Shown here in pieces: positions 35,265 through 63,795 of a stretch of 64,000 nt of DNA. The position numbers and the translations under genes are program-made. Each line of letters opens with the position of its first letter. The first letter of the stretch is position 1. The stretch comes from Kitasatospora sp. NBC_01266 (lineage in GTDB: Bacteria > Actinomycetota > Actinomycetes > Streptomycetales > Streptomycetaceae), in NCBI RefSeq assembly GCF_036242395.1, contig NZ_CP108458.1, forward strand, positions 8,308,001-8,372,000. The letters are read 5' to 3'. The notes beneath the pieces are model-generated. The model had not been told where the DNA came from. It did no database searches and worked only from the letters and a program-made list of their open reading frames with translations.

Positions 35265-35352
35265 TGAAGTTCCCCCGTTGATCTGGACAGCTTGATACTG
35301 GGACGGTTGAGTCCCGGAGGAAGCAGTCCAGGTAGTGCGTGGCAAGAGCAAC

Positions 35353-45628: not shown

Positions 45629-45662
45629 GAGATCTTTCCGTTCTCGTTGATGCCGGTCCCGC

Positions 45663-47477: not shown

Positions 47478-49393
47478 GGCCGGGCCTCCTCTGCGCGGTC
47501 GTCCTGGGCGGACCCGGCCGACCGGGTCGCCGGCACCAGGTCGTCCTCCGGCTCGGCATCCGTCGCCGGCACCAGGTCGTCCTCCGGCTCGGCACCCGTC
47601 GCCGGCGACTCGTCGAACCGGGAGGCCTGGAGGGTGTAGAGGTCGTGGTACCGGCCGCGCGCGGCCATCAGCTCGGCGTGGGTGCCGAGTTCGATGATCC
47701 GCCCCTGTTCGAGCACGCAGATCCGGTCGGCCTGGCGCACGGTGGAGAACCTGTGCGAGATCAGCAGGGTCGTCACGCCGCGCGTGGCGCGCAGGAGGCG
47801 CCCGAAGATCTCGGCCTCGGCGCGTACGTCGAGTTGTGCGGTGGGCTCGTCCAGGATCACCAGACCCGCCCCGGACCGCACCGCGGCCAGCGCCCGGGCG
47901 ATGGCCACGCGCTGCCACTGGCCGCCCGACAGGTCGGTACCACCCTCGTACTCGCGTGCGAGAACGGTGTCGAGCGGCGCGAGTCCGAGCCCGCCGGCCT
48001 CCCGCAGGGCAGCCTCGATGACTTCGTCGCTCGCTCCGTTCGGAGCGACGTTGTCCCGCAGCGGCAGGTGGTAGCGGAGGAAGTCCTGGAACACGGCCGC
48101 GACCTGCCCGCGCCAGGCCTCGAGGTCGAACTCGCGCAGATCGGTGCCGTCCACTTCGATGGCCCCGCCGGTGGGGTCGTGGAGTCGGCAGAGCAGCTTC
48201 GCCAGCGTGGTCTTGCCCGCCCCGTTGACGCCGACGACCGCGAGTGAGGTCCCTGCCTCGATGGTCAGGTCGACCCCGTCGAGGACCGGGCTCGCGCTGC
48301 CCGGATAGCGGAACTCGAGCCCGCGCAGCCGGATTCGAGAGGCGGGAAGACCGTCCGCCCGCTGCGTGCCCGACGGCAGTCGACCGGCCTCTGCCATGGA
48401 TTCCCGCAGCTCCAGGGCGGTGGCTACCGACTCGGCGGTGGGCGGCAGGGCCCAGTTGATCCCACCGAAGGCCACTGCGGAGACTCCGAGGGCGGCCTGG
48501 GCGAACATCGCCGCCCGGCCGACGGACAGCTCGCCGGCGGCCGCCTGCTGGGCCAGCGACCAGAACAGCAGTCCGTTGGCGGCCACGAGGACGAGCACCG
48601 CCCAGCGCAGCGGTCTGCGCCGCAGCCGGGTCGCCTGCCACCGCAGTTCGCCGAGCTTGCGGCGCTCCGCGGTGAACCGGGCCACGGTCCACTCGCTCAG
48701 CCCGAAGATCCGCAGTTCCTTGGCGGCCGGCGCGGCCACCGCGAGGCGGTAGGAGTAGTCCGCGTCGCGTTGCGCCGCGAGCACCTGAGCCTCACTCCGG
48801 TCCCAGGAACTGCTCTCCCGCAGCAACCAGTGCGTCGACAGCCATGCGCCGGCCAGCAGCGGGGCGGCCCACCAGCTGTAGTCGAGCAGGACCGCCGACT
48901 GCGCCAGCCCGGCGGCCGCCTCGACCAGGCCGCCGGAGATCAACCCGATCGCGATGATCATCGGCGGCCCGGACATCCCTTGGTCGAAGTCCTTGGCGAG
49001 CGCGAGGCGTTCGGCGAGTTCCCGGGACTCCAGGTGGGCGAGGGCGGGTGGTTCGGTCGAGGCACCCGCCAGGACGTCCTGCAGGCGATCGGACATTCGT
49101 TCGCCGAGGCTGCTGCTCACCTGGGCGTGCACCGGAGCGAGTAGTTGGATGAGCACGAACGCGACGCCGACCGCCACCAGCGGGTCGAGGTACGCCCGGT
49201 CGGCGTTGAGCGCCCCGATCAGCCCGCCGGTCAGGACCGTGAGGATCGCCGGCAGCATGCCGCGGCTCGCGATCAGGCACCACCAGGCGATGCCCAGGCG
49301 GAAGTCGGTCCGGGTGAGGAAGGCGAAGAGGACGAGTTCCTGCCGACGACGGATCGCGGCGATCACCGCTGCCTCGCGGTGAAAGGGGTACAC
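47474..49393 (-). CDS. ABC exporter half-transporter, second
   Basis: This 639-residue protein has an N-terminal membrane domain (LFAFLTRTDFRLGIAWWCLIASRGMLP then further helices) and an ATPase domain with Walker A GVNGAGKTT, signature LSGGQWQRVA, Walker B VILDEPTAQLD and H-loop SHRFS. Near the C-terminus a 12-residue unit (PATxAEPEDDLV) is repeated in tandem, encoded by a 36-bp repeat. The pair of half-transporters suggests a heterodimeric exporter in the cytoplasmic membrane. The 85 bp before the chorismate-lyase stop hold no gene. Confidence 0.9.
   Translation of the reverse strand: MYPFHREAAVIAAIRRRQELVLFAFLTRTDFRLGIAWWCLIASRGMLPAILTVLTGGLIGALNADRAYLDPLVAVGVAFVLIQLLAPVHAQVSSSLGERMSDRLQDVLAGASTEPPALAHLESRELAERLALAKDFDQGMSGPPMIIAIGLISGGLVEAAAGLAQSAVLLDYSWWAAPLLAGAWLSTHWLLRESSSWDRSEAQVLAAQRDADYSYRLAVAAPAAKELRIFGLSEWTVARFTAERRKLGELRWQATRLRRRPLRWAVLVLVAANGLLFWSLAQQAAAGELSVGRAAMFAQAALGVSAVAFGGINWALPPTAESVATALELRESMAEAGRLPSGTQRADGLPASRIRLRGLEFRYPGSASPVLDGVDLTIEAGTSLAVVGVNGAGKTTLAKLLCRLHDPTGGAIEVDGTDLREFDLEAWRGQVAAVFQDFLRYHLPLRDNVAPNGASDEVIEAALREAGGLGLAPLDTVLAREYEGGTDLSGGQWQRVAIARALAAVRSGAGLVILDEPTAQLDVRAEAEIFGRLLRATRGVTTLLISHRFSTVRQADRICVLEQGRIIELGTHAELMAARGRYHDLYTLQASRFDESPATGAEPEDDLVPATDAEPEDDLVPATRSAGSAQDDRAEEARP
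47526..47606. repeat. 36-bp tandem repeat in the exporter gene's 3' end
   Basis: Two full 36-bp units (47526-47561, 47562-47597) differ by one base and are followed by a 9-base partial copy. They encode the repeated acidic linker at the C-terminus of the second ABC exporter. Confidence 0.85.
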
Positions 49394-49478: not shown

Positions 49479-50093
49479 TCACCTGGTGGTCGTGGACTGG
49501 GGCTCGCCCGGGCCCGGAGGGTCGCCCAGCCGCAGGCAGGCGGCGGTGAAGACCTCGCCCACGACCATCGCGGGGCGGCCGCCGATGAACACCCGGTAGA
49601 CGCGCAGGGCGCCGGTCACCGCCTGATCCGGTCCGCGGGGCGCCGCCGCCTCCTTGGCGCCGTCCAGCGGGTCGGGGGCCTCGCCTGCGAACAGCGCGCG
49701 ACTGAACAGGAGTTCGCGGAAGGTCTCGACCCGCCATCGGCGCAGGACCCGGCCGATCGGCTCGGCGGTCGTGGTGAGGTCCCGGTGGACCGGTCCGGGC
49801 AACGTCTCAGCCGCGAGCACGGACCGTGCGCGCACCAGGGTCGTGCCGGAGCTGGCGCCGACCAGCAGCGTGGACCGGTTCAGGACGGAGCCGGAGCCGA
49901 TGCCGTCCGCCAGGGCCGCCAGGGCCCCGGCGGGCGCGGGACCGCCGTGGTGCAGGGCGGCGAGGCGGATCGCCTCGCCGGCCAGTTCCTCCAGCAGCGT
50001 GGTGACGGTTCCGTCGCTGGTCACGAGCATCCGGCCGAACGGGCTCAGCCGGCCAGGGGGCAGGTGTCCCGCCGGCGTTCCGGCGGCTCTCAC
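49479..50093 (-). CDS. Chorismate-lyase-family (UbiC/DUF98-like) protein
   Basis: This 204-residue protein has the pattern of the actinobacterial chorismate lyase family: MLVTSDGTVTTLLEELAGEAIRLAAL, then VLNRSTLLVGASSGTTLVRARSVLAAETLPG and IGRVLRRWRVETFRELL. Such enzymes split chorismate into pyruvate and 4-hydroxybenzoate. The stop-start overlap with the ligase gene (50090-50093) and the ACP gene beside it suggest that the product is the acid activated by the ligase. The reaction itself is inferred from the family. Confidence 0.75.
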   Translation of the reverse strand: MRAAGTPAGHLPPGRLSPFGRMLVTSDGTVTTLLEELAGEAIRLAALHHGGPAPAGALAALADGIGSGSVLNRSTLLVGASSGTTLVRARSVLAAETLPGPVHRDLTTTAEPIGRVLRRWRVETFRELLFSRALFAGEAPDPLDGAKEAAAPRGPDQAVTGALRVYRVFIGGRPAMVVGEVFTAACLRLGDPPGPGEPQSTTTR

Positions 50094-51517
50094 CGGGAGT
50101 CCCGTACCGGCCGTGCGCGCAGCGCCTTTCCGGTGGCCGACCGCGGGATGTGGTCAACCGGTTCGAAGGCGCGCGGCATCTGATGGGGAGCCAGCTCGGC
50201 GCGGCACCACTCGATGAGTTCACCCGCCACGGCACCGGGTCGCAGCACGACCCGGGCGACCGGCACTTCGCCACGCACCTCATCGGCCAGGGCGCAGACG
50301 GACACGTCGAGGACACCCGGGTGTTGGGAGATCACCCGTTCCACCTCACCCGGAGAGACCTTCTCACCGGCGACGTTGATGACGGCGGCCGACCGGCCGA
50401 GCAGTGTCAGCCGACCCGGTGAGACGCCTGACCACTGGGCCAGATCGCCCGTGCGGTACCAGCCGTCAGGGTCGGAGACGGGCAGCAGCCGGTTGCGCGT
50501 CCCAGGCCCGAAGCGCCCCAGGGCGAGTGAGGAGGTCCGCACCTGGAGCTCCCCGCCGTCGAGCCGGACCCGCACACCGGGCAGCGGCTCCCCGATGTCA
50601 CCGGGTTCCTGGCCGCGGTCGACACGGGAGAGGGTCATCGCTCCCGCTTCGGAGGAGCCGTAGCAGTTGTAGAGCGGCAACTCCAGGGCGTTCCCCGGGC
50701 GTTGTTGGACGACCGGTGGCAGTGCCGCCCCGGCCGAGACCGCGGCGTTCAACCGGGCCAGGTCCTGGACGGTCGCCCCTTGCCGGCCCGTCCCCTGCGC
50801 CAGCAGGCCGTAGTGGGCCGGCAGCGCGATCAGGGTCCGGGCGTCAAGTGCTCGAACCGCCGCGGCGTACGTCGAGGGCAGGCACCTGCTCGGCAGCAGC
50901 CGTACGGGGGCACCCGCCACGAGTGGTGCGATGAGGCCGTAGTTGAAACCGTAGGCGTGGAACACGGGCGCGGCGCAGACCACCGGCGCTCCGGGCTCGT
51001 AGCCGAGGAAGTCCGCGACCCGCCGCGCGTCCGCGAGCACGGCGGCGCGGGACCGGACGACCGCCATCGGCGTTCCGGTCGAACCGGAGGTGAAGAAGAC
51101 CTGCGCGTCGGGCGGTAGTTCAGTCGCCGGCTCCAGGCCGTCGGCGGCGGCGGCGCGGACGAGGCCGAGGAACGGTGACTCCTGAGTACCGGGCCGGGCC
51201 GGCCGTTCGGTTCCGGCCGGCCCGGCCCCGTCGCGCACGGCCGGCCCGGACGGACCCGCCGCGGTCGCCGGGTCCCGGTGCAGCAGTGGGATTCCGGCCC
51301 GGTCCGCGGCGAGCGTGAGCAGAGCCGTGGCCACCGGATCGTCGGACTCGACGACGACGGCGCTGCCCGAGTAACGACGTGCCAGTGCCTCCGACAGCTC
51401 CGTCGCCGTGAGCAGCAGTTCGTCCCGGCTCCAGGAACGGTCGCCGGCGATCAGCGCGGGATCGGTGGAGCTGCCGGCGGCCGCGGCGACCGCGGCGAAG
51501 ATTCCCGGCGAGTTCAT
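50090..51517 (-). CDS. Acyl-AMP ligase (ANL superfamily)
   Basis: This 475-residue protein has adenylation motifs FFTSGSTGTPMAVV (phosphate loop), YNCYGSSEAG, WYRTGD, GRSAAVINVAGEKVSPGEVE and a C-terminal catalytic lysine in PRSATGKALR. It activates a carboxylic acid as acyl-AMP and passes it to a thiol, here most likely the ACP encoded next to it. Its length is shorter than stand-alone NRPS domains. ATG 51517 follows AGGAG. The context suggests a hydroxybenzoate substrate; the pocket residues were not analysed. Confidence 0.87.
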   Translation of the reverse strand: MNSPGIFAAVAAAAGSSTDPALIAGDRSWSRDELLLTATELSEALARRYSGSAVVVESDDPVATALLTLAADRAGIPLLHRDPATAAGPSGPAVRDGAGPAGTERPARPGTQESPFLGLVRAAAADGLEPATELPPDAQVFFTSGSTGTPMAVVRSRAAVLADARRVADFLGYEPGAPVVCAAPVFHAYGFNYGLIAPLVAGAPVRLLPSRCLPSTYAAAVRALDARTLIALPAHYGLLAQGTGRQGATVQDLARLNAAVSAGAALPPVVQQRPGNALELPLYNCYGSSEAGAMTLSRVDRGQEPGDIGEPLPGVRVRLDGGELQVRTSSLALGRFGPGTRNRLLPVSDPDGWYRTGDLAQWSGVSPGRLTLLGRSAAVINVAGEKVSPGEVERVISQHPGVLDVSVCALADEVRGEVPVARVVLRPGAVAGELIEWCRAELAPHQMPRAFEPVDHIPRSATGKALRARPVRDSR

Positions 51518-51563
51518 GACGACTCCTGGAGTGCGGTTTCGGCTGGGCGACGGACCGGGCCGG

Positions 51564-51815
51564 TCAGCCGCGCGCGACGATGTAGTCGGCGATCTTCGCG
51601 GGCGTGCTGAAGCTCTCCACCGTGAGCTCCTCGTCCGGAATGGTGAGGGAGAACTCCCCCTCGATCCAGACCAGGAGTTCCAGGACACCGAGCGAGTCGA
51701 ACTCGGCATAGTCGCGCAGGTCCGTATCGGCCTCCGGAGAGCTGCCGCGTAGCGCGGGAATCACCTCCTGGAGGCGCAGCGAGATCGCATCGAGGACTTC
51801 CTGACGTTCTGCCAT
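51564..51815 (-). CDS. Acyl carrier protein
   Basis: This 83-residue acidic protein has the phosphopantetheine attachment motif FDSLGVLELLVWIEGEF, with Ser at about residue 41, and the usual four-helix pattern ending STPAKIADYIVARG. It starts at ATG 51815 and its stop lies 46 bp before the ligase start. It should carry the acyl group activated by the neighbouring ligase. It is a free-standing ACP; no ketosynthase or NRPS module is visible in the window. Confidence 0.9.
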   Translation of the reverse strand: MAERQEVLDAISLRLQEVIPALRGSSPEADTDLRDYAEFDSLGVLELLVWIEGEFSLTIPDEELTVESFSTPAKIADYIVARG

Positions 51816-51879: not shown

Positions 51880-52785
51880 TCAGATCGCCGGGGTGAACGA
51901 CCGCTCGGCGCTGCGCACGGCTGACAGCAGCGCGCGGTACGAGGCGGCGGCGGGCCCTTCCGGCAGCAGGTCCTTCCAGGGCTTCGCCGGGCTCGCGAAG
52001 TGCAGCACCGCGGACGTCTCCTCCAACCGGACGAGGTCCTGCAAGGGCATCAGGTCCTGCGTGGTGTACCGGACCCAGGGCGTGCGGACCAGTGCCGACA
52101 GCGGAAAGGCGTTCCAGTGCGGCTCCAACCGCTTCCACCGGTCTTGTGCGGCCCAGTTGAGTGCGTCCTGGTCCCAGAGCCGGATGTGCTCCGGATGGGC
52201 CGCGATGAACTCGATCGCCCGGGCGAAGAGCCGCTCCTCGCGGCAGGCGGCCGGGTCGATCAGCAGCACGCCGGAATTGAAGTACTCCTGCTCGGGAGGG
52301 ATCCCGAGCTTGGACCAGCCGGGCAGGGCTCGCCCCCGTCCGACGACCGGGTTGAGCGGATCCCGTACGGCTCCCAGCGGCCGGCCGTCGAGTTCGGTGC
52401 CGAACAGTGCGCTGAGGTCCCCGCGGATGACGAGGTCCGCGTCGAGATACAGGACCCGCTCGCGGTCGAGGTACATCTCGGGTATGACCAGCCGCAGGTA
52501 ATTGGCATGAGCCCCGCCGAACGCGGTCGGATAGCGGATCGGCTCCAGGTGCACGGGGCGCAACCTCACTCGCAGGCCGAGGAGTTCCGCGTGCCACCGT
52601 AAACGCTCGATCGTCAGCGGTGAGAGCTCCTCGTAGAGCAGGTCGATCTGCAGCCGGTCGGTCAGTTCGGCATTCGACGCACGGAGCGAGTGCCACGCCA
52701 CGGTCAGCGGAAGGCTGTAGGACTCGTCGATGGCGAAGACGATTTGAGTCGGTTCTCCATCGTTCGAAGGCATTGGCTTGGGCAC
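51880..52785 (-). CDS. GT8-family glycosyltransferase
   Basis: This 301-residue protein shows GT8 landmarks in order: IVFAIDESYSLPLTVAWHSLRASN, NYLRLVIPEMYLDRERVLYLDADLVIRGDL with the metal-binding DAD, EYFNSGVLLIDPAAC, LWDQDALNWA and HFASPAKPWKD. GT8 enzymes are retaining and use UDP-glucose or UDP-galactose. GTG 52785 follows GGGGGAAAG at a good distance; ATG 52773 is possible. It is the first gene of the leftward operon and is directly controlled by the shared promoter region. Confidence 0.88.
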   Translation of the reverse strand: MPKPMPSNDGEPTQIVFAIDESYSLPLTVAWHSLRASNAELTDRLQIDLLYEELSPLTIERLRWHAELLGLRVRLRPVHLEPIRYPTAFGGAHANYLRLVIPEMYLDRERVLYLDADLVIRGDLSALFGTELDGRPLGAVRDPLNPVVGRGRALPGWSKLGIPPEQEYFNSGVLLIDPAACREERLFARAIEFIAAHPEHIRLWDQDALNWAAQDRWKRLEPHWNAFPLSALVRTPWVRYTTQDLMPLQDLVRLEETSAVLHFASPAKPWKDLLPEGPAAASYRALLSAVRSAERSFTPAI

Positions 52786-53088: not shown

Positions 53089-53291
53089 GTGACGATCATG
53101 CGCTCGCTCCAGCAGCCGCTCCGCCTGGCCGGCGCAGACTCCGGGATCCGCCGGAGTCGTACCGAGGCCCTTTCGCTGCGGACCGGCAACCGGGCCGCGC
53201 CGCAGTGCGCCGCGCGGCGGACCCGCTCACCACCTTGCCTCGCCGCAGGAACCGGTCGCGTTCCGAGCAAGTCACGAGAATCGAGGGAGTC

Positions 53292-54269
53292 ATGACACGG
53301 CCTCACACGGCGCGGGCTGCCCGGCTGCTCCCCGCGCCCCGTCCCGACTCGCCGGCGCGAGCAACGGGCCGGCCCGCCGGCCGGCTCGCCGAGATCGTCG
53401 CCCGGGTCCGCCATGTGCCCGACCGCTACCGCGAGTTCCGGCAGGACGGGCACCGGGCAACCCGTGAACACGGCATCATCCCTGCCCTGCTGGGGGAACT
53501 CGGCGATGTCGGGCTGCCTTCCCTGGTCCGTGACGGCGTCAGGTACTTCGACCAGATCGATCTGGCCAACGTCGCCCTGGCGTTGCGCCTGCCCAACGCG
53601 CGCACCCTGGCGATGCGCGGCTGGGCGAACTCGCTGCGCGCCACGTCCGGCGCGGCCGCCGGCTCGTTCGAGGTCGAGGTGCGGGCGCACTGTCCGCAGC
53701 CCGGACACCCCGGTGAGTGCGAGTACACGCGCAGCGAGGCCCTGCGCTCCCTCGCCGGGTACACGCCGGCCGCCGCCTCCGACACCGGGCAGCTGCGCCA
53801 CCGGGTTGCGCGGCCCATGACCGAGGGGCGGCTGCCCGACGCGCTCGCGAGCCTGTTCCGGCCGCTGCGTTTCCACCTGCTCCCGGAGCCGCTGCGCGCC
53901 GATCTCGGATTCCTGGCCGAGACCAATCTCGCCGACTGCGACCTCGCCGCCCTGTACCTGACGCGCGAGGCCGGCCGACTCGGCCTCGCGGCCCGCTACA
54001 GCTACGGGTTCTTCCTCGCCGCGCCGTACTCCATCATCCACACGTGGACGGAGGTGCTCGACGGTGGGGAATGGCACGCATTCGACCCGCACCTCCTCAA
54101 CCTCCTCGGCGACTGGTCGCTGCTCGACCCCGAGGAGTGGCCGCCGCACCGGTCCATCGGGAGCTGCACGGCGCGCGTCAGCGACCACGACGTCTGGCTG
54201 ACGACACATCACGGGGCCTGCGCTCCGCTGTCGCTCGCCACTCGCCGGGTCGAGGAGGACGCCAGATGA
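53292..54269 (+). CDS. Transglutaminase-like protein
   Basis: This 325-residue protein has the Cys-His-Asp triad of the transglutaminase fold: Cys in ETNLADCDLAALYL, His in SIIHTWTEVLDG and Asp in WHAFDPHLLNLL. ATG 53292 follows GGGAG. In andrimid biosynthesis AdmF, a transglutaminase homologue, joins carrier-bound acyl groups to amines. With a free ACP and ligase in the same cluster an amide-forming role is plausible but inferred. It starts the rightward operon and overlaps the next gene (ATGA). Confidence 0.8.
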   Translation: MTRPHTARAARLLPAPRPDSPARATGRPAGRLAEIVARVRHVPDRYREFRQDGHRATREHGIIPALLGELGDVGLPSLVRDGVRYFDQIDLANVALALRLPNARTLAMRGWANSLRATSGAAAGSFEVEVRAHCPQPGHPGECEYTRSEALRSLAGYTPAAASDTGQLRHRVARPMTEGRLPDALASLFRPLRFHLLPEPLRADLGFLAETNLADCDLAALYLTREAGRLGLAARYSYGFFLAAPYSIIHTWTEVLDGGEWHAFDPHLLNLLGDWSLLDPEEWPPHRSIGSCTARVSDHDVWLTTHHGACAPLSLATRRVEEDAR

Positions 54270-55396
54270 GCAGCCGATCGGAGCTGCCGGACGGGCGGAT
54301 CACGGGCACGCCGGTCCGGATCGTCCTCGTCGGCGCCGGCGCGATGGGGCAGGCCTGGGCCCGAGCGCTGCACAAGCACCCCCGTTGCCGGCTCGCGGCG
54401 ATCGTGGACAGCGATCCGCGTCGGGCGCGGGGGCTGGCGCTGCGCCTGCGCCTGCCGGAACTGCCCGTCAGCGCGACGCTGGAGTCGCTACCGGGACCGG
54501 CGGCGGACGCCTGCGTCAATGCCACTCCTCCGCAGGTCCACCGGTCGGTGATCACTGAGGCCCTCACCAGCGGCCTGTCGGTACTGACCGAGAAGCCCTT
54601 CGCCATGGATCTCGACCAGGCGGCCGAGCTGACCGGGACAGCCGCGCGCCACGGCCGGTTGTTGATGGTCAGTCAGTCTCGGAGCCTCCAGCCGGGGGCG
54701 GACGCCTTCCGAACGGCCGTCGGCCGGCTGGGCGGTCTGCACAGGCTGGAGGCACGCTTCAGTCGCGGCTACCCCGCGGAAGGGTTCCGTTCGGAGTTGG
54801 ACCAGCCGCTGCTGCGCGACATGGCGGTGCACGCCTTCGACACGGCCCGGATGCTGACCGGAAGCGATGCGGACTCCGTCTACTGCGACGCTCCCGCGCG
54901 CCCCCGCTCGGGATACCGCGGTCCGGCCGAAGCGATCGCGCTGTTCACCATGCTGGACGGTTCGCGCTTCCTCTACCAAGGCAGTTGGTGCGCTCCGGCG
55001 ATGCCCACCGCCTGGAGCGGTCGCTGGCGGGCGACGGGTCCGCACGGCACCGCGACGTGGACGGGGGCGGGGACGGTCCGGTTGGCGCTCGTGAGCGGTG
55101 CGGGGGTGTCGTCCCGGGAGGCGGGAGCGGACCACGAGCCCGCCTCGGACGAGGACGGGAGGATCGTGGCCCAGGTCGATGACCAGGGGTTCGACCGGGA
55201 CCCGGTGCGCCAGGTGGCAGCGCCGCTCGAGGAGTTCCTCGACGCCCTGGCCACCGGAGCACCGGGCTGGGGCAGCGCCCGGAACAACCTCGCGACGATG
55301 GCGATGCTCGATGCCGCGATCGCGTCCGCGCGTTGCGGCGCTCCGGTCGCGGTCGTGCCGGGCGCGGCGCGGATTCCCGCCGGACGGGGCGACTGA
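54266..55396 (+). CDS. Gfo/Idh/MocA-family oxidoreductase
   Basis: This 376-residue protein has the NAD(P) loop VLVGAGAMGQAWARAL (about residues 19-34), VDSDPRRARGLA and the family motif TEKPFAMD in which Lys is catalytic. The C-terminal half is the alpha/beta substrate domain. Family members oxidise or reduce sugar or cyclitol carbonyls, so a role in sugar or ketone tailoring fits. The stop overlaps the amidase start (TGATG). Confidence 0.87.
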   Translation: MSSRSELPDGRITGTPVRIVLVGAGAMGQAWARALHKHPRCRLAAIVDSDPRRARGLALRLRLPELPVSATLESLPGPAADACVNATPPQVHRSVITEALTSGLSVLTEKPFAMDLDQAAELTGTAARHGRLLMVSQSRSLQPGADAFRTAVGRLGGLHRLEARFSRGYPAEGFRSELDQPLLRDMAVHAFDTARMLTGSDADSVYCDAPARPRSGYRGPAEAIALFTMLDGSRFLYQGSWCAPAMPTAWSGRWRATGPHGTATWTGAGTVRLALVSGAGVSSREAGADHEPASDEDGRIVAQVDDQGFDRDPVRQVAAPLEEFLDALATGAPGWGSARNNLATMAMLDAAIASARCGAPVAVVPGAARIPAGRGD

Positions 55397-56238
55397 TGCG
55401 CCTGGCTCTGGTCCAGGCCCCCGCCGCGCCAGGTGATCCGCAGGAGAACCTCAGGCGCGGGCTGGCGCTGTGCGAGGACGCCAAAGCCGACGGTGCCGAC
55501 CTCGTGGTCTTTCCCGAACTGTGGCAGACCGGGTACGCCCCCTGCCCGACCGACGCGGCGGGGGAGCAGCGGTGGCGCGACCTGGCCACCTCGGTCCACG
55601 CCCCCTGGCTGGGAGCCTTCCGGGAGGCCGCGCGGAGCTTGGGCCTCGCCGTCGTCACGACCTACATGGAGGCGCACGGCACGGGCCTGAGCAACGCGGC
55701 GGCCGTCATCGACGCGGCCGGACGGGTCGTGGACGTCTACCGGAAGGTCCACGTCTGCGACTTCTTGTGGGAGCGGGTCTTCACACCCGGGCGCAGGTTC
55801 GCCGCCGCGACCGTGGAGACGGTCGCCGGTCCCCTCAGGATCGGCGTCATCATCTGCTTCGACCGCGAGCAGCCGGAGGCCTGCCGGGCGCTCGCGCTGG
55901 ACGGAGCGGAACTCATCGTCTGCCCGAACGCCTCCCTGCTGTGCGACGACCGGATCGGACAGGTCAGGGCTCGGGCGTTCGAGAACTCGGTGGCGGTCGC
56001 GGTGGCCAACTACCCGCTGCCGAGGATGAACGGGCGCTCCTGCCTGTTCGACGGGCGGGCCGTGCACCAAAACCGACCGCGCGACCACACGATCGCGCTC
56101 GCCGACGGCCGCAGCCGGCTCGTCCTCGCGGATCTGGACCTCACGGCACTGCGTGAGTACCGCACCGGTTCGATCTGGGGCGCGGCGCACCGGCGGCCGG
56201 CGGCCTATGCCTCTTTGACCCAGGGAGTGGCCCGATGA
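55396..56238 (+). CDS. Carbon-nitrogen hydrolase (nitrilase superfamily)
   Basis: This 280-residue protein has the complete Glu-Lys-Cys triad: Glu in VVFPELWQTGY, Lys in VYRKVHVCDF and Cys in GVIICFDREQPE. The family hydrolyses nitriles, amides and carbamoyl groups or, in reverse, makes amides. Its place between oxidoreductases in the operon suggests an amide or nitrile step, or removal of a protecting group. The C-terminal end overlaps the next gene by four bases. Confidence 0.88.
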   Translation: MRLALVQAPAAPGDPQENLRRGLALCEDAKADGADLVVFPELWQTGYAPCPTDAAGEQRWRDLATSVHAPWLGAFREAARSLGLAVVTTYMEAHGTGLSNAAAVIDAAGRVVDVYRKVHVCDFLWERVFTPGRRFAAATVETVAGPLRIGVIICFDREQPEACRALALDGAELIVCPNASLLCDDRIGQVRARAFENSVAVAVANYPLPRMNGRSCLFDGRAVHQNRPRDHTIALADGRSRLVLADLDLTALREYRTGSIWGAAHRRPAAYASLTQGVAR

Positions 56239-57173
56239 CCCGGTCAGCTGCGATCCGGCCCTTCCGCTTCGGCGTGCTCGCCGGCGGTGCCGCCGACGTC
56301 GCGCAGTGGGAGGCGCTGAGCCGGCGGTGTGAGGAGTACGGATACAGCTCGTTCCTCGTCCCCGACCACCTGAACCGCGAGTGGGGCCCACTCGTCGCCC
56401 TGGCCCTCGCGGCGCGGGCGACCCGGTCGATCGCACTGGGCCCGCTCATGCTCGGCGCCGCCCTGCGGCAACCATCGGTGCTCTACAAGGAGTTGGCCAC
56501 GCTCGACCTCGTGGCTCCCGGGCGCCTGGAGATCGGAGTGGGCGCGGGATGGCTGGCGTCGGACTTCAGCCGCGCCGGCGTCGAGATGGAGCCCGGTGCC
56601 GCCAGGATCCGCCAAGCCGTGGAGGCGGTGACGGTCCTGCGCCGGCTCTGGAACGAAGGAAGCGCCACCTTCCTGGGGAGCTCCCACCGGGTCCTCGACG
56701 CGGTCGGCGAGCCCCGGCCGAGCGCGGCCCGCTGGACGATGGGTGGCGGTGGACCCCGGATGTTGCGCGCGGCCGCCGAACAGGCCGACATCGTCTCCTT
56801 CTCCGCCCAGCTCTCCTCCGGCACCAAGGACAACCGGTTCGGTCCTTCCGCGCGGGCGGCCGAGTTCGACAGGCGGGTGCGCTGGGTGAGGGAGGCCGGG
56901 CCGGCCGCGGACCCGCCGGAGTTCCAGTGCCTGCTCTTCGCCGCCGCCATCTGCGCTTCCAGTACGCGCTACGCCGAGCGGGTCCTCACCCACATGTTCG
57001 GCCTCCCGCCCGCGGAGGCACTGGACTCCCCGCTGGCACTGGCGGGCAGTGTGGCCGAGGTCTGCGAGCGCCTCGAGGAGCGGCGGCAGCGGTACGGGAT
57101 CTCCTACTGGGTGCTCCCCGGTGCCCAGGCGGACGCGTTCGCACCGGTGGTCGAGCGACTGGCCGGCAAGTGA
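56235..57173 (+). CDS. Luciferase-like (LLM class) flavin/F420-dependent oxidoreductase
   Basis: This 312-residue protein has the TIM-barrel LLM pattern: YGYSSFLVPDHLNREWGPLVALALAARATRSIALGPLMLGAALRQPSVLYKELATLDLVAPGRLEIGVGAGW and TMGGGGPRMLRAAAEQADIV. Members use FMN or F420 for oxidations and reductions. The sequence alone does not say which cofactor is used. It overlaps the amidase gene by ATGA and precedes the carbamoyltransferase. Confidence 0.87.
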   Translation: MTRSAAIRPFRFGVLAGGAADVAQWEALSRRCEEYGYSSFLVPDHLNREWGPLVALALAARATRSIALGPLMLGAALRQPSVLYKELATLDLVAPGRLEIGVGAGWLASDFSRAGVEMEPGAARIRQAVEAVTVLRRLWNEGSATFLGSSHRVLDAVGEPRPSAARWTMGGGGPRMLRAAAEQADIVSFSAQLSSGTKDNRFGPSARAAEFDRRVRWVREAGPAADPPEFQCLLFAAAICASSTRYAERVLTHMFGLPPAEALDSPLALAGSVAEVCERLEERRQRYGISYWVLPGAQADAFAPVVERLAGK

Positions 57174-57205
57174 CCCATGCCCGACGAACACGATCAGGAG
57201 GAACG

Positions 57206-58855
57206 TTGCGCGTCCTAGGACTGGGCGGATCACACCACGACTTCTGCGCCGCCTTGGTGGCGGACGGTCAGGTCGTGTCGGCCATCGAGGAGGAGCGGCT
57301 CACCCGGGTGAAGATCGCTTACGGACTCGGGCCGCGCCTGCAGCAGTGCCTCGCGGCGGAGTACGTGCTGAACGCGGCGGGAGTCACCGCGGACGAGGTC
57401 GACCTCGTGATCGCCAACGACTTCGTCAATCCCGTCTACACCCTTCGACTGCGGGACCGGGTGCGGTGGATGGGGCACCACCTCGCCCACGCGGCGAGCA
57501 CCTTCTACACCTCGCCCTTCGAGCGGGCCGCCGTGCTGGTCATGGACGGCCGCGGATCGACCGTGGTCGAGCAGGGCCGGCTGCACGGTGAGACGGTGAC
57601 CTGCTACCAGGCCGGGCCCGGCGGCCTCGAGGTGCTGCGCGCGCAGCACGGCCGCGTCACCCTGACGGACCGGCGGTCCGAGGACCCTTACGAGGACTCG
57701 GTGGGCTGGATGTACGAGGCGGTGTCCAAGGCCATCGGCCTGTTCACCACCGGAGGCATGGGAGCGCCGGGCAAGACCATGGGGCTGGCCGCCTACGGGA
57801 CGCCGCGCTACGTCGCGCGACTGGGGGAGTTCTTCCGGCTCTCCGCCGGAGAGTTCCGTCAGTCCACCGCCCAGCAGATCGCCATGCGCTCCTTCATCGA
57901 CCGGGAGCTCGCCGAGGCCGGTGACGCGGTCGAGGGCCAGGCCCGGCGGGCCGACCTCGCCTACGCGGTCCAGCACCACACCGAGCGGATAGTGATCGAG
58001 TTCGCTCGCTGGCTGCACCGGCGCACCGGTCTGACCGACCTGTGCCTGGCGGGCGGGGTGGCCCTCAACAGCGTGGCGAACTACAAGCTCCTGTCGGAGA
58101 CGGGGTTCGAACGGGTACACGTGGTCCCGGCCGCGGGCGACGGCGGGACGGCGATCGGCTCGGCCCTGTACGGGTACCACGAACTGGGCGGGCACCCGTG
58201 GAAGCCGGCACCGCAACCGTTCTCCCCCTACCTCGGCCGCGCGTACGGGGCGGACCGGATCGAGGCGGCGCTTGCCGCCGAGTCCGGCCGGCTGCGCGTC
58301 CTGCGTCCGGACGACCCGTACTCCCTGGTGGCCCGCGAGCTCGCCGGTGGAGCGATCGTCGGCTGGTTCCAGGGCCGGTCGGAGGCGGGCCCGCGGGCCC
58401 TGGGGAACCGCAGCATCCTCGCGGACGCCCGGGATCCGGGGATGAAGGACCGCATCAACGCCAGGGTCAAGCACCGCGAGCCGTTCCGACCGTTCGCCCC
58501 GATCGTTCTGGAGTCCCGCCAGGCCGAGTACTTCACCACCACCGTGCCGGCCCCCTACATGCTCATGGTCCCGGACGTGCGGAAAGAGATGCGTGCGGTC
58601 ATCCCGGCCGTCACCCACGAGGACGGCTCGGCCCGGCTCCAGACGGTGCTGCGGGCGCTCAACCCCCGCCTGGACGCCCTGCTGGCCGCCTTCGACGCCC
58701 TCACCGGCGTTCCCGTGCTGCTCAACACCTCGTTCAACGACAACGAGGAGCCGATCGTCGAGACACCCGAGGACGCCGTGCGCTGCTTCCTCAAGACCCA
58801 GATCGACGTCCTGGTGCTCGGTGACCTCGTCGCCTACAAGACCGCGGTCTCGTGA
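57206..58855 (+). CDS. Carbamoyltransferase (NodU/TobZ family)
   Basis: TTG 57206 stands four bases after an AGGAGG site. The 549-residue protein opens with RVLGLGGSHHDFCAALVADGQVVSAIEEERLTRVK, has the metal-binding histidine pair in MGHHLAHAASTFYTSPF, LCLAGGVALNSVANYKL, and a C-terminal part with FRPFAPIVL. This is the Kae1-like plus YrdC-like plan of O-carbamoyltransferases, which use carbamoyl phosphate and ATP to carbamoylate a hydroxyl group, usually of a sugar or macrolide. The final product should therefore carry a carbamate. Confidence 0.9.
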   Translation: MRVLGLGGSHHDFCAALVADGQVVSAIEEERLTRVKIAYGLGPRLQQCLAAEYVLNAAGVTADEVDLVIANDFVNPVYTLRLRDRVRWMGHHLAHAASTFYTSPFERAAVLVMDGRGSTVVEQGRLHGETVTCYQAGPGGLEVLRAQHGRVTLTDRRSEDPYEDSVGWMYEAVSKAIGLFTTGGMGAPGKTMGLAAYGTPRYVARLGEFFRLSAGEFRQSTAQQIAMRSFIDRELAEAGDAVEGQARRADLAYAVQHHTERIVIEFARWLHRRTGLTDLCLAGGVALNSVANYKLLSETGFERVHVVPAAGDGGTAIGSALYGYHELGGHPWKPAPQPFSPYLGRAYGADRIEAALAAESGRLRVLRPDDPYSLVARELAGGAIVGWFQGRSEAGPRALGNRSILADARDPGMKDRINARVKHREPFRPFAPIVLESRQAEYFTTTVPAPYMLMVPDVRKEMRAVIPAVTHEDGSARLQTVLRALNPRLDALLAAFDALTGVPVLLNTSFNDNEEPIVETPEDAVRCFLKTQIDVLVLGDLVAYKTAVS

Positions 58856-59916
58856 CCGGCGAGTCGGCGGCGATCGACGCGCTGTGCGCGCTGGTCGGAC
58901 CGACGGACCGGCAGGCCGGCCGGCTCGGGGCGCTGCGGCTGCGGACCCTGGCGCGTCCGCACGGAGCGCTCGGCCGACTCGACGACCTGGTGCCCAGGAT
59001 CGCGATGATCCGCAGCGATCCCGACCCCGGGCCGCTGCCCGCGCTCGTCAGCGTGCTGGCGGCCGACCACGGGCTGGCCCGGCGCGCGGTCTCGGCACTG
59101 CCGCAGCCTGCCGGGGGGCGGGTGCTCGCCCTCGTGCAATCGGGCCGGGCGCCGCTGAACCTGATCGCCGACCGGGTGCCCGCGCGAGTCGTCAGTGCGG
59201 ACTTCGGTCTCGTCGAGCCGGTCGGCGAAGCGGAGTTCCGGATGGGAGCGGGTACCGAGGACATCTGCCTGCGTGACGCGATGACGCGTGCCGACGCCGA
59301 ACGCGCGGTGCTGAGCGGTGCCCGGTTCCTCCGGAGCCGGTTGGGGGAGGAGACGATGGTCGCCGTCGGTGAGATCGGCGTCGGGAACACGACCGCGGCC
59401 GCCGCGCTGACGGGCAGGCTGCTGGAGCTTCCGGTGGCCGCGGTGGTGGGAGCCGGGTCGGGCGTGGACCCGGCCGCAGTGGCACGCAAGCACGCGTTGG
59501 TCGAACGAGCACTGATCCGCACCGCGGGCCTTCCCGGGACGGACACCCTGGCGCAGCTCGCCGCCCTCGGCGGCTACGAGATCGCCGGGAACGTCGGAGT
59601 GATCCTCGCCGCCGCCGCGGCGCGCCGGGTGGTCGTCCTCGACGGATTCATCACCGCGGTCGCCGCCCTCATCGCGGTCCGGCTCTGTCCGCCGGTCGGC
59701 CACTACCTGGTGGCCGCCCACCGTTCGGCGGAGCCGGGCCACCGCCCGCTGCTCCAGGCGCTCGGGCTGGACCCGCTGCTGGACCTGGGCCTGCGCCTGG
59801 GCGTGGCGAGCGGTGCCGCCCTCGCCCTGGGTCTGGTCAACACCACGCTGGAACTCGCCCATCGGACGCCGCGGGCCCGTGATGTGGGTCTCGCCCTGCC
59901 TGCGGAGGACGGATGA
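58852..59916 (+). CDS. CobT-like nicotinate mononucleotide:base phosphoribosyltransferase with altered active site
   Basis: The 354-residue protein keeps the CobT landmarks: PHGALGRLDDL, AADHGLARRAVSALPQ, VGEIGVGNTTAAAAL (phosphoribosyl site), LGGYEIAGNVGVILAAA, VVLDGFITAVAAL and AAHRSAEPGHRPLLQALGLDPLLDLGLRLG. At about residue 318 it reads RLGVASG where CobT enzymes have RLGEGSG, so the catalytic glutamate (Glu317 in Salmonella CobT) is a valine. CobT enzymes move phosphoribose from nicotinate mononucleotide to a base; ArsAB relatives use phenols. Overlaps the carbamoyltransferase by GTGA. Confidence 0.88.
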   Translation: MTGESAAIDALCALVGPTDRQAGRLGALRLRTLARPHGALGRLDDLVPRIAMIRSDPDPGPLPALVSVLAADHGLARRAVSALPQPAGGRVLALVQSGRAPLNLIADRVPARVVSADFGLVEPVGEAEFRMGAGTEDICLRDAMTRADAERAVLSGARFLRSRLGEETMVAVGEIGVGNTTAAAALTGRLLELPVAAVVGAGSGVDPAAVARKHALVERALIRTAGLPGTDTLAQLAALGGYEIAGNVGVILAAAAARRVVVLDGFITAVAALIAVRLCPPVGHYLVAAHRSAEPGHRPLLQALGLDPLLDLGLRLGVASGAALALGLVNTTLELAHRTPRARDVGLALPAEDG

Positions 59917-60578
59917 ACCACGCGGCCGCCGGGCCGGCGCGACCGCGAGGAGTCGTCTTCGACCTCGACGGAACGCTCCTGGACACGTGGCGGATTCACG
60001 AACACTGCCTGCGCGAGGCCGTGCGCGACCTCAGCGGGTCGCAGGTGGGCAAGGTGCGGCTCTGGCGCGCCCAGCGGCCGACCGATCTCGCCACCCTGGG
60101 CGAGCTCGTCGGGGCCGAGCACGCCCAGGAGGCGCTGCTGGCCTACCGCGCGGCGCTCGCTCGGGAACTCACGGTCCGTCTGCCACCACCGGTCCGCGGG
60201 GTCGAAGCAGCGCTGGCGGGGCTGCGAAGCCGCGGGGTCCCGGTCGGCATCTGCACCGGACGGTCGCGTGAGGACGCGCAGACCCTGCTGACGGCCGCGC
60301 GACTCGACGTGCCGCTGATCGTCGCCCGCCAGGACGCGCCGCCCAAGCCCTCCCCGGTGGCCCTGCTGCTCGCACTCCAACACCTCTCCCTGGCGCGGCA
60401 GGACGCTCTGTTCGTCGGCGACAGCGAGTGGGACCGGTCGCAGGGGAGTGCCGCGGGCGTTCGCACCCTGATCGTCGGGCGGGCCGGCCTGCCCGCCGAA
60501 CTCGCCGCCGCGCGCTGGCCCCTCGGCACCGGCCCGGCCGCTGCCGCCGATGACCCGAGCGGAAACCCCATCCCTTAG
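59913..60578 (+). CDS. HAD-superfamily phosphatase
   Basis: This 221-residue protein has the HAD motifs VVFDLDGTLLDT (nucleophile Asp), TGRSREDA (motif II Thr), PPKPSP (motif III Lys) and VGDSEWDR (motif IV acids). It resembles phosphoglycolate/phosphosugar phosphatases. Right after a CobT-like gene it probably removes the 5'-phosphate from the ribosylated product, as the CobC phosphatase does for alpha-ribazole phosphate. This link is inferred from gene order. Confidence 0.85.
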   Translation: MNHAAAGPARPRGVVFDLDGTLLDTWRIHEHCLREAVRDLSGSQVGKVRLWRAQRPTDLATLGELVGAEHAQEALLAYRAALARELTVRLPPPVRGVEAALAGLRSRGVPVGICTGRSREDAQTLLTAARLDVPLIVARQDAPPKPSPVALLLALQHLSLARQDALFVGDSEWDRSQGSAAGVRTLIVGRAGLPAELAAARWPLGTGPAAAADDPSGNPIP

Positions 60579-60590
60579 TGAGAGTCAGAC

Positions 60591-61646
60591 ATGGACACCA
60601 GTAAAGGGCCCGGCCAGGAAGGTCGGCCGGGCGCCCGAGGTCCGGCCGACGCCGCCGCGGGCGAAGGCTCCATCACTGTCATCGACCTGGCGGACGCGCA
60701 CGACGCCGTGGGCCGGGTCCGGCTGGCCGCCCGGATCCGGGCCGTCTGCGAGGACCTCGGCGCCTTCCTCGTCGTGGGGCACGGCATTCCCGACCAGGTG
60801 GTGCGCGGGGTCCAGGACGCGGCCGCCGCGCTCTTCGGCGGACCCGAACGATTCGCCGCCGGGCTCGCCGTCGACCCCGAAGACCCCCTGCTGCGCGGTC
60901 TGATCGCCGGGAGCATCGAGCCGCTGCTGGCCTTCACCGTGAACAGCCTCGGCGAGCCGGGAATGGACGCCCGCTTGCCCGAGGATGTCGCGGCGGCGTT
61001 GACCACACCGAACAAATGGCCCCGGATCGCGGGGTTCACCGAGGCGTTCGGGGCCTACTGGGCCGCGATGAGGCGGCTCGCCGATCAGCTGATGGAGCTG
61101 TTCGCCCTCTCGCTCGACGTTCCCGAGGGCTGGTTCCGGCCCAGCTTCACGCCTGACATGTCGAGTCTGACCGCGAACTTCTACCCGGCCACGGCGCCGG
61201 CCGAGTCCGGCGGCTCCACTGCCGACCTCCTCAAGATCGCCCACCGGGACTGGAGTTCGCTGACCGTCCTGCACCGGGATCAGGGGGCCGCCGGGCTGCA
61301 GGTGCTGCACCGCGACGGAGCCTGGCACGAGGTCCCCGTGGTCCCGGGATCGTTCGTGATCAACGTCGGTGACCTCATGACGCACTGGACGAGCGGACGT
61401 TGGCACAGCGCCGTGCACCGGGTGGTCGGGCCACCGGTGGGCCGCCCACCCCGTGACCGCCTCTCCATCGCCTACTTCCACCAGCCGGGTCCGGCCGCGG
61501 TCGTCACCCCGGTCGTGGGACCTGCCGGCCCCGGAACCGGGGCCGCGTACCGCCGGATCCGTGTCGATGAGTACTTCGCTGCCAAGCGCCGCCATGCGCG
61601 TGCCGTCGAGCGGCTCATCACCTCGTCCGCCAGGGGGCGGACATGA
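60591..61646 (+). CDS. 2-oxoglutarate/Fe(II)-dependent oxygenase (isopenicillin N synthase family)
   Basis: This 351-residue protein shows the iron triad His-x-Asp in AHRDWSSLTVLHRD and His in HSAVHRVVGP, and the 2-oxoglutarate-binding RDRLSIAYF. N-terminal AFLVVGHGIPD is the non-haem dioxygenase signature. It should hydroxylate or desaturate a pathway intermediate. ATG 60591 lies 12 bp after the phosphatase stop; the first 26 residues are Gly/Ala-rich and may be disordered. Confidence 0.88.
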   Translation: MDTSKGPGQEGRPGARGPADAAAGEGSITVIDLADAHDAVGRVRLAARIRAVCEDLGAFLVVGHGIPDQVVRGVQDAAAALFGGPERFAAGLAVDPEDPLLRGLIAGSIEPLLAFTVNSLGEPGMDARLPEDVAAALTTPNKWPRIAGFTEAFGAYWAAMRRLADQLMELFALSLDVPEGWFRPSFTPDMSSLTANFYPATAPAESGGSTADLLKIAHRDWSSLTVLHRDQGAAGLQVLHRDGAWHEVPVVPGSFVINVGDLMTHWTSGRWHSAVHRVVGPPVGRPPRDRLSIAYFHQPGPAAVVTPVVGPAGPGTGAAYRRIRVDEYFAAKRRHARAVERLITSSARGRT

Positions 61647-62578
61647 GTGGAGAGCTGGTCCTGGTCACCGGCGGTGCCGGTTTCATCGGCAGTCACCTGG
61701 TCGAGGCGCTGCTCCGCGATCGCCCCCGAGCGCTCGTGGTGTCAGTCGACTCGTACCTCACCGGGCGGAAGGAGAACCACATCGACGATCCCCGGGTGTG
61801 CTACCTGACCGGGGAGACCCTGGAGCTCGGTCGCCTGTGGTCCGAGAACAGCCTGCCCTCTCCTCGTACGGTCTTCCACCTGGGTGAGTACTCCCGCGTC
61901 GAAAGCTCCTTCAACGAACTCGATCGGGTATGGCAGTCCAACCTCCACGGCACGAAGGAGGTCGTCGCTTTCTGCCGCCGGCACGGGGCCCGGTTGGTCT
62001 ACGCCGGGTCGAGCACGAGATTCGGCCAACCGCCCCATGACGAGCACTCGAGCCCCTACTCGTGGATGAAGGCGAAGAATGTCGAATACATTCGCAACAC
62101 CGCCCACTGGTACGGGCTCGACTACGTCATCACGTATTTCTACAATGTCTACGGGCCGCGGCAGATCCGTCAGGGACCGTATGCAACGGTCATCGGAGTC
62201 TTCGAGGAGCAGCGGCGTCGGGGAACCGCCCTGACCGTTGTCGAACCCGGTTCCCAGCTGCGCGACTTCACCCACGTCGACGACATCGTCTCCGGGCTGC
62301 TGGTGTGTGCCGCCCACGGAGCGGGGGACGGCTACCTGCTCGGTCGCGGCGAGGAGCACCGGATCGTCGATGTCGCCCGCATGTTCGGCGGCCCGGTGCA
62401 CATGGTTCCGGCCCGCCGTGGCGACCGGTTCCGCAGCGCGTCCGATTTCTCGAAGGTCCGCGATCTGGGCTGGGTGCCGAAGATCCGCCTGCAGGACTAC
62501 ATCGCTGGGCTCGACCACTCGGATCCCCGTCCGGGGCCGAGCGCGGGAACAGAGCTGGACGAAGGAGCGCGTGAATGA
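61643..62578 (+). CDS. NAD-dependent epimerase/dehydratase (extended SDR)
   Basis: This 311-residue protein has VLVTGGAGFIGSHLVEAL, FHLGEYSRVESSF, a catalytic YSWMK (Tyr-x3-Lys) and FYNVYGPRQ. It resembles UDP-glucose 4-epimerase-like sugar nucleotide enzymes. Together with the CDP-glucose enzymes of the left operon it could set the stereochemistry or reduce the 4-keto sugar. The start overlaps the oxygenase stop by ATGA. Confidence 0.88.
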   Translation: MSGELVLVTGGAGFIGSHLVEALLRDRPRALVVSVDSYLTGRKENHIDDPRVCYLTGETLELGRLWSENSLPSPRTVFHLGEYSRVESSFNELDRVWQSNLHGTKEVVAFCRRHGARLVYAGSSTRFGQPPHDEHSSPYSWMKAKNVEYIRNTAHWYGLDYVITYFYNVYGPRQIRQGPYATVIGVFEEQRRRGTALTVVEPGSQLRDFTHVDDIVSGLLVCAAHGAGDGYLLGRGEEHRIVDVARMFGGPVHMVPARRGDRFRSASDFSKVRDLGWVPKIRLQDYIAGLDHSDPRPGPSAGTELDEGARE

Positions 62579-63795
62579 GCATCACCGACAGCACCGAAGT
62601 GACGGCTACCTGCCCGGTGCGATTTCCTGCCGCGAGGGAGAACCCCTTCGCCCCGCCCGGCGCCTACCGTCCCCAGGGACACGACGGCGGGCCGATCGAG
62701 ATCGATCTGGCCTACGGCGGCCGGGCCTGGCTGGTCACCCGGCACGCCGACGTGCGGGCGCTGTTCAGCGACAGCCGGTTGAGTTCGGACGCCACCGTCG
62801 AGGGCTATCCGCAGATTCCGCTCTCCTACCGCCGGCAACGTCCCGGTGTCTTCCTGTCCATGGACCCGCCGGACCACGAGCGCGTCCGGAACCTGCTGAG
62901 CCGGGAGTTCAGCGCCGCCGCGGTGGCCGCCCGCCGTCCGGCCATCGAGGAACTCGTGGACCGGCTGCTCGACCGGCTCACCACGGGCGGGCGCCGTTCG
63001 GGCGACCTGGTCAAGGACTTCGCCGACCTGCTGCCGTGCTACGTGTCCGGTTACCTCTACGGAGTCACCGGCGACTACGAGGACTTCGTCCGGCAGTGCA
63101 TCAACGCCCGGGCCACCCACGACGGATCGATGGCCAAGCGCCTGGTCGCGGGCGAACGGATGCGGCGCTTCCTCGGTGAGCTGCTGGACGCGAAGGAACG
63201 GGAGCCCGGCGACGACCTGCTCTCCCGGCTGCTCGCCAACGCGCGTGCGGCCGGCCTCGGACGGGACGACGTCGTCGGCGCGGCCACCCTGCTGCTCGCC
63301 GCCAGCCTCGACGCCACCGCGGCCGTCACGTCCATGACCGTCCTGGCGATCCTGCGGGATCCGGACCTGACGGAACGGATGCGGGCGGATCCGCGCCGCT
63401 GGGCCTCCCAGGCGGTCGAAGAGGGGCTGCGGTACTGGACCGTGATCCAGCACGGCCCGGTGCGTTCCGCCACGGAGGACATCGAACTGGCCGGTCGGAG
63501 GATCCGCAAGGGCGAGTTCGTCATCCTCCACCTGCACTCGGCGAACTGGGATCCGGCGGTCTTCCAGCACCCCGAGGAGTTCGACATCGACCGCGTCCAC
63601 AACCCGCACCTGGCCTTCGGACACGGCATCCACCGCTGCCTGGGCGGCGGTCTCGGCACCCTGGAGGCGACCATCGCCCTGGAGCGGATCTTCACCGGAC
63701 TGCCGAACCTTCGGCTCGACATCGCCGAGGACGATCTCGCGTACCGCCATGAGGACCTCGTCTACGGCGTGCGCAGCCTTCCGGTCGCATGGTGA
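62575..63795 (+). CDS. Cytochrome P450
   Basis: This 406-residue protein has the heme motif FGHGIHRCLGGGLG (Cys ligand), the ExxR in VEEGLRYW and an I-helix AASLDATAAVT with a threonine for proton delivery; the preceding acid/alcohol pair is unusual. It also has MDPPDHERVRNLLSREFS, typical of soluble class I bacterial P450s. It needs a ferredoxin and reductase, not seen here. It overlaps the epimerase by ATGA. Confidence 0.9.
   Translation: MSITDSTEVTATCPVRFPAARENPFAPPGAYRPQGHDGGPIEIDLAYGGRAWLVTRHADVRALFSDSRLSSDATVEGYPQIPLSYRRQRPGVFLSMDPPDHERVRNLLSREFSAAAVAARRPAIEELVDRLLDRLTTGGRRSGDLVKDFADLLPCYVSGYLYGVTGDYEDFVRQCINARATHDGSMAKRLVAGERMRRFLGELLDAKEREPGDDLLSRLLANARAAGLGRDDVVGAATLLLAASLDATAAVTSMTVLAILRDPDLTERMRADPRRWASQAVEEGLRYWTVIQHGPVRSATEDIELAGRRIRKGEFVILHLHSANWDPAVFQHPEEFDIDRVHNPHLAFGHGIHRCLGGGLGTLEATIALERIFTGLPNLRLDIAEDDLAYRHEDLVYGVRSLPVAW

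Follow-up and report, generated by a model that had tools for sequence, protein, structure and literature searches.

A CobT-family protein without its catalytic glutamate is encoded together with a HAD phosphatase in actinobacterial natural-product gene clusters

Results

In Kitasatospora sp. NBC_01266, a gene for a CobT-family protein overlaps the gene for a HAD phosphatase within a natural-product gene cluster that also encodes a chorismate lyase and an acyl or aryl ligase. The pair lies in a stretch of 64,000 nucleotides (contig NZ_CP108458.1, positions 8,308,001 to 8,372,000), which we call the window and whose own numbering is used below. Its central features are the following:

58852..59916, plus strand: CobT-family (DBI_PRT) protein with Val318 replacing the catalytic Glu317 (PF02277, alignment, AlphaFold model)
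59368..59394, plus strand: conserved phosphoribosyl-binding loop GEIGVGNTT, containing Glu174 (sequence, alignment)
59794..59814, plus strand: RLGVASG motif (canonical RLGEG[ST]G), with the Val318 codon at 59803-59805 (sequence, alignment)
59913..60578, plus strand: HAD-IA phosphatase (Pfam HAD_2 6e-22, motifs, junction)

The CobT-like open reading frame starts with GTG and encodes 354 amino acids, of which residues 17-338 match PF02277 (DBI_PRT; E=2.8e-85, 286.9 bits, cut-off 22.6). GTGA is shared between this start and the stop of a preceding carbamoyltransferase gene, and the ATG of the phosphatase gene (221 amino acids) falls within the last 4 bases of the CobT-like gene (ATGA), so that carbamoyltransferase, CobT-like protein and phosphatase are probably translated together. 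All four HAD motifs (DLDGT, CTGRS, KP and GDSxxD) are present in the phosphatase. An AlphaFold model of the CobT-like protein, built from a 23-sequence alignment of the window and related loci, reached a pLDDT (predicted local distance difference test score) of 94.3 and a pTM (predicted template modelling score) of 0.94. It matched Salmonella CobT with a Z-score of 48.1 and a root-mean-square deviation of 1.8 Å over 342 residues (PDB entry 4kqj), while Z was 44.6 for ArsA and 27.5 for the CobT of Methanocaldococcus jannaschii (MjCobT). The predicted fold is that of CobT, a match that does not by itself show function.

Loss of the glutamate defines a clade

Seven related loci encode proteins with 47-61% identity to the window protein. 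They come from Kitasatospora sp. A2-31 (L037/L042), Streptomyces pathocidini (L041), Saccharothrix deserti (L043), Actinoplanes sp. NBRC 103695 (L044), genome G135 (L038), Streptomyces fildesensis (L039/L045) and Streptomyces sp. H39-S7 (L040/L046). In a maximum-likelihood tree, these loci and the window formed one clade on a long stem with 100/100 support, placed apart from canonical actinobacterial CobT and from ArsA and ArsB, which were on long branches. As L038-L040 are close kin, the eight loci represent closer to six independent lineages. The clade gene is rare, occurring in 5 of 396 relatives with the host counted. Further sampling of 22, 35 and 355 genomes yielded no new clade member, which speaks for rarity in these samples and not for absence; the sets of 22 and 35 were two families expected at first to contain further members, and the set of 355 was the Actinoplanes family, where only the already known Actinoplanes was found. 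Plasmid records contained solely canonical-type matches with <60% identity and no clade member, and a candidate from an alphaproteobacterial metagenome-assembled genome (L047) was set aside as canonical, being closer to the host's CobT. In Streptomyces sp. H39-S7, a frame change at about residue 256-262 divides the CobT-like gene (L040:9631-10670 = L046:10001-11040) into two open reading frames, which is either an assembly error or a damaged gene.

Residues were compared in a family alignment of 26 canonical loci, three bacterial CobT sequences from the PDB, the divergent CobT paralogue of the host (L002), ArsA, ArsB and the eight clade members; W and Se denote residue numbers of the window protein and of Salmonella CobT, respectively. 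Val318 of the window protein shares its column with Glu317 of the Salmonella enzyme. This column holds Glu in all 29 canonical sequences, in L002, in ArsA (RLGEGIG) and in ArsB (NLGEGTG), and in none of the eight clade members, seven of which have Met and only the window copy Val. With eight loci in agreement, a chance mutation or sequencing error at this position is ruled out. Glu174 and the GNTT loop are retained throughout the clade, except for Thr in place of Asn in L040 and Val in place of the second Thr in L043. Likewise, the family-wide Asp, His, Lys and Glu residues are preserved, and the sugar-phosphate and nicotinate-side motifs are invariant or nearly so over the eight loci. A first-pass annotation of the window had delimited the gene pair exactly as given above, and its two statements on motifs, that the GEIGVGNTT loop is conserved and that RLGVASG lacks the equivalent of Glu317, are borne out by the sequence and the family alignment.

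Further changes shared by the clade are found on the acceptor side. At Se80, the clade has Leu, Phe, Tyr or His, and the usual Trp (26 of 30 sequences compared) is gone in 8/8 members; of two further acceptor-pocket positions, Se88 is Val or Leu, usually Met elsewhere, and Se175 is Ile. A Salmonella CobT triple mutant changed at these three positions (S80Y/Q88M/L175M) was crystallised with p-cresol (PDB 4kqj title). Arg108, Arg112, Asp142, Arg189, Asn247 and Arg277 are invariant in the clade and uncommon in the canonical set, although some clade-invariant residues, such as Arg112, are present in part of that set. The first acceptor-pocket stretch, W74-W92, which corresponds approximately to the region of Asp52 in MjCobT, contains no Asp or Glu that is invariant in the clade. 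By alignment-range offset, an approximate mapping, Asp52 falls at about W90, where seven of the eight clade members have Arg.

Gene neighbourhood of the CobT-like gene

The surrounding cluster comprises the following further features:

57176..58855, plus strand: O-carbamoyltransferase of the TobZ/NodU type (Carbam_trans_C 4e-70; homologues in L037, L041, L043)
49479..50093, minus strand: chorismate lyase, forming 4-hydroxybenzoate (PF01947 1.6e-6, 28.6 bits, cut-off 22)
50090..51709, minus strand: AMP-dependent acyl/aryl ligase, likely activating 4-hydroxybenzoate (AMP-binding 2.7e-30)
51564..51815, minus strand: stand-alone acyl carrier protein (ACP; PP-binding 3e-9)
60591..61646, plus strand: 2-oxoglutarate (2OG)-Fe(II) oxygenase (homologues in L037, L043, L044)
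61643..62578, plus strand: NAD-dependent epimerase/dehydratase (PF01370 1e-37)
62575..63795, plus strand: cytochrome P450 (PF00067; homologues in L037, L041, L043, L044)
42451..43713, minus strand: GT4 glycosyltransferase (homologue directly upstream of the CobT-like gene in L037, L041, L043, L044)
43725..44900, minus strand: CDP-glucose 4,6-dehydratase (TIGR02622 301 bits, above cut-off)
44828..45724, minus strand: glucose-1-phosphate cytidylyltransferase-like protein (TIGR02623 9e-37, below the equivalog cut-off)
53205..54269, plus strand: transglutaminase-like protein, possibly an amide synthase (relative at L004:8994-9911, which matches Transglut_core marginally)
54266..55396, plus strand: Gfo/Idh/MocA oxidoreductase
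55390..56238, plus strand: nitrilase/amidase-family hydrolase
56235..57173, plus strand: luciferase-like (LLM) oxidoreductase
51880..52785, minus strand: GT8 glycosyltransferase
45663..49393, minus strand: ABC exporter pair (49393-47474 and the next overlapping frame; homologues in L037, L041)

Across the clade, the HAD gene follows the CobT-like gene immediately in 8/8 loci, with intact motifs (the lysine motif being PKPAA in L037 and L040). The AMP-ligase is likewise present in 8/8 loci and a stand-alone ACP in 6/8. Chorismate lyase or a divergent homologue was found in seven of the eight: it is clear in the window, L037, L041 and L044, while in L038-L040 a diverged homologue stands right after the ligase (profile comparison, 91% probability, E=1e-6). 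The larger clusters share recurring genes for carbamoyltransferase, P450, 2OG oxygenase, ketosynthase (KS)-ACP and transglutaminase-like proteins. In L038-L040 the common set is reduced to CobT-like protein, HAD, ACP, ligase and the lyase-like gene; no other observation points as clearly to action of the CobT-like/HAD pair on the 4-hydroxybenzoate unit.

Several other features of these clusters may be recorded. The dehydratase, the cytidylyltransferase-like protein and the GT4 enzyme (42451-45724, minus strand) make up a CDP-deoxysugar branch, which is unusual for antibiotic clusters. A transketolase in two parts, its N- and C-terminal halves encoded by two overlapping frames, runs across the end of the window (63795-64000 and L004:1-1470) and may form a branched sugar or a ketol; a LacI-type regulator is encoded at L004:1559-2779. 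The cluster continues beyond the window (L004:4265-9911) with a FabG-like ketoreductase, a luciferase-like oxidoreductase, a KS-ACP protein of 865 amino acids and a second transglutaminase-like protein. Frames resembling IS3-type and IS5-type transposases (35292-36551 and 39443-40273) separate the cluster from upstream genes and perhaps mark its left border. In Saccharothrix deserti, a class III aminotransferase gene by the ligase (L043:13099-14379) scores above the NCBI cut-off for aminotransferases of daptide-type RiPPs (ribosomally synthesized and post-translationally modified peptides).

Separation from cobamide synthesis

The host genome encodes two other CobTs, both with Glu and about 1.1 and 5.8 Mb from the window copy, and one of them adjoins CobS. 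In S. pathocidini (G396), the clade protein is the sole CobT family member, and neither CobS nor canonical CobT was found when looked for in the 5.5 Mb draft sequence. All clade loci have natural-product neighbours and no genomic tie to cobamide genes. Given the two other CobTs of the host and the independence from cobamide genes in S. pathocidini, the enzyme belongs to the natural-product pathway and not to cobamide synthesis. In the main CobT of the host (L001, G000:C1:7230563), the CobT part follows a nitroreductase-like (BluB-type) domain in the same polypeptide, with a long N-terminal stretch rich in Ala, Pro and Glu; long frames resembling this one occur across Streptomyces.

The window protein scored 278.5 bits against the NCBI cobT equivalog (TIGR03160), whose cut-off is 319.3, and all seven clade proteins tested remained below it, while the canonical L001 and L012 were above. 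Six of these seven missed both NCBI cobT cut-offs, and L041 missed the equivalog cut-off only. L002, which keeps Glu, is also under the equivalog cut-off, so that this test is not absolute. Compared with CobT from Salmonella and Thermus (31-37% identity), the window protein is alike in its fold (Z 45-48), the GE.G.GNTT loop, Glu174 and the invariant Asp, His and Lys residues. In contrast, the clade has Val or Met where the canonical enzymes have Glu317, altered pocket residues at Se80, Se88 and Se175, no link to cobamide genes and a phosphatase of the HAD type. The phosphatases that accompany canonical CobT, CobC and CobZ, are of another family.

Discussion

The clade appears to be a variant of a known enzyme family that was recruited to a natural product from Actinobacteria. 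We consider it about an even bet (roughly 0.52) that the window protein is a CobT-fold phosphoribosyltransferase serving its natural-product cluster, which would transfer phosphoribose from nicotinate mononucleotide (NaMN) to the phenol of 4-hydroxybenzoate before dephosphorylation by the HAD enzyme. NaMN is the phosphoribosyl donor in the CobT family. The 5-phosphoribose of NaMN would be passed to a phenolic oxygen, either on 4-hydroxybenzoate itself or on its carrier-protein thioester or an early extension product. If the carboxyl is taken up by the ligase and ACP loading, the phenol would be left as the free nucleophile. For phenols whose ring carries an activating 4-acyl group, such as the parabens, the pKa is about 8; an acceptor of this kind may not need a general base, which could explain the loss of Glu317. 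The HAD enzyme would then remove the 5-phosphate to give an aryl ribofuranoside with a free 5-OH, which the coupled carbamoyltransferase could carbamoylate; GT4, P450 and 2OG oxygenase may decorate the ribofuranoside as well. The order of steps and the anomer are tentative in this reading, as are the O-linkage and alpha configuration of the riboside that the first-pass annotation named as a candidate. That the clade as a whole ribosylates 4-hydroxybenzoate, perhaps carrier-bound, without a general base and with NaMN instead of a nucleoside diphosphate (NDP)-sugar, yielding aryl ribofuranosides, falls a little short of even odds in our judgement. The same tentative standing applies to the joint claim that a cobamide enzyme was recruited as a glycosylation module of natural products with its own phosphatase.

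ArsA and ArsB are relatives of CobT that act on phenols. The ArsAB enzyme of Sporomusa ovata, a phenol/p-cresol alpha-O-phosphoribosyltransferase, shares superfamily and fold with the window protein (Z 44-45) and would be the precedent for O-ribosylation, but it is a heterodimer of two gene products that serves cobamide lower ligands, whereas the window contains a single CobT-family gene. An ArsAB orthologue was rejected, as the clade is separate in the tree, Glu is kept in both ArsAB subunits and no second subunit gene is adjacent. MjCobT has Val at position 317, like the window copy, and ribosylates benzimidazole and adenine with Asp52 as base (PMC9561151); it is a cobamide enzyme with only 14-15% identity and Z 27.5 to the window protein. 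The E317A variant of Salmonella CobT has yielded crystals containing reaction products (title of PDB entry 4kqi). Taken together, ArsAB, MjCobT and E317A indicate that the loss of Glu alone signals neither a phenol nor the exclusion of azoles, and it is gene context rather than Glu loss that suggests a phenolic acceptor. The first-pass annotation had argued from the missing Glu to a phenol, amide or other acceptor and had suggested comparison with ArsAB; that argument is weak, and the clade does not group with ArsA or ArsB. Its other proposals fared better: a role outside cobamide synthesis agrees with gene context and with the situation in S. pathocidini, the phosphatase pairing holds, and 4-hydroxybenzoate as source of the acceptor is backed by the lyase genes.

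Several observations weigh against ribosylation of the 4-hydroxybenzoate phenol. The phenol-ribosylating ArsA and ArsB retain Glu, so that its loss is no phenol signature, and the clade-specific acidic columns D/E126 and D142 are possible substitute bases. The sugar of the aromatic unit could come from other sugar and glycosyltransferase genes of the window, and no chorismate lyase was detected in L043 within 21 kb. Further, neither a substrate nor a product or known compound came to light. The open-licence literature yielded no CobT homologue in a natural-product cluster and no ribosylated 4-hydroxybenzoate metabolite, and a known product sought through S. pathocidini was not found. Clusters of the hygromycin A / A201A type, which use a 4-hydroxybenzoate starter, have a similar logic of chorismate lyase, ligase, ACP and KS and a similar expected aryl furanoside. 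In those clusters the furanose comes from an NDP-sugar via a glycosyltransferase, and we know of none that uses a CobT-type enzyme.

Among the alternatives, transfer of phosphoribose from NaMN to another site of the 4-hydroxybenzoate unit is the strongest, though still unlikely. Loss of the base is no less compatible with a carboxylate, which needs none, or with attack by carbon than with a phenol, and clade-specific Arg residues at W90, W99 (6/8), W108 and W112 could bind an anion. An acyl riboside is, however, hard to reconcile with the conserved ligase and ACP, which require the carboxyl to be free, and for a C-riboside on the ring or a polyketide carbon we know of no C-glycosylation in the CobT fold. 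Barely less probable is an amide, amine or heterocycle unrelated to 4-hydroxybenzoate as acceptor, formed by the nitrilase, Gfo/Idh, aminotransferase or transglutaminase-like enzymes of the larger clusters; these genes are not clade-wide and are mostly missing in L038-L040, whereas HAD, ligase and mostly chorismate lyase are shared. It is improbable that the protein is an additional cobamide CobT that accepts benzimidazole or purine and relies on a substitute base, as MjCobT (Val317) does on Asp52. A working archaeal enzyme with Val317 (PMC9561151) and the Salmonella E317A crystals with products (4kqi) would allow it, but S. pathocidini has the clade gene without CobS or other CobT and the Kitasatospora host already has two CobTs. 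Moreover, the clade gene is constantly in natural-product clusters, the Trp at Se80 is lost in 8/8 members, and the NCBI cobT cut-offs were missed, both of them by 6/7 clade proteins tested and the equivalog one by L041. A catalytically dead homologue retained as binding or regulatory partner, as loss of the general base across the whole clade might suggest, is least probable, because the sugar-phosphate and nicotinate-side motifs are (nearly) invariant in the eight loci and the gene is coupled in translation to that of a phosphatase whose catalytic motifs are all present.

Clade genes are probably labelled as vitamin B12 genes by automatic annotation and are thus easily missed. The CobT-like/HAD pair is a small signature by which a family of uncharacterised clusters that start from 4-hydroxybenzoate can be mined, and the absence of Glu317 throughout the clade amounts to a natural experiment on the dependence of the CobT reaction on its base. 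If ribosylation of 4-hydroxybenzoate by the CobT-like enzyme is correct, it would constitute a route of natural-product ribosylation that starts from NaMN and not from NDP-sugars or phosphoribosyl pyrophosphate, and a CobT-family enzyme would be working outside vitamin B12 metabolism.

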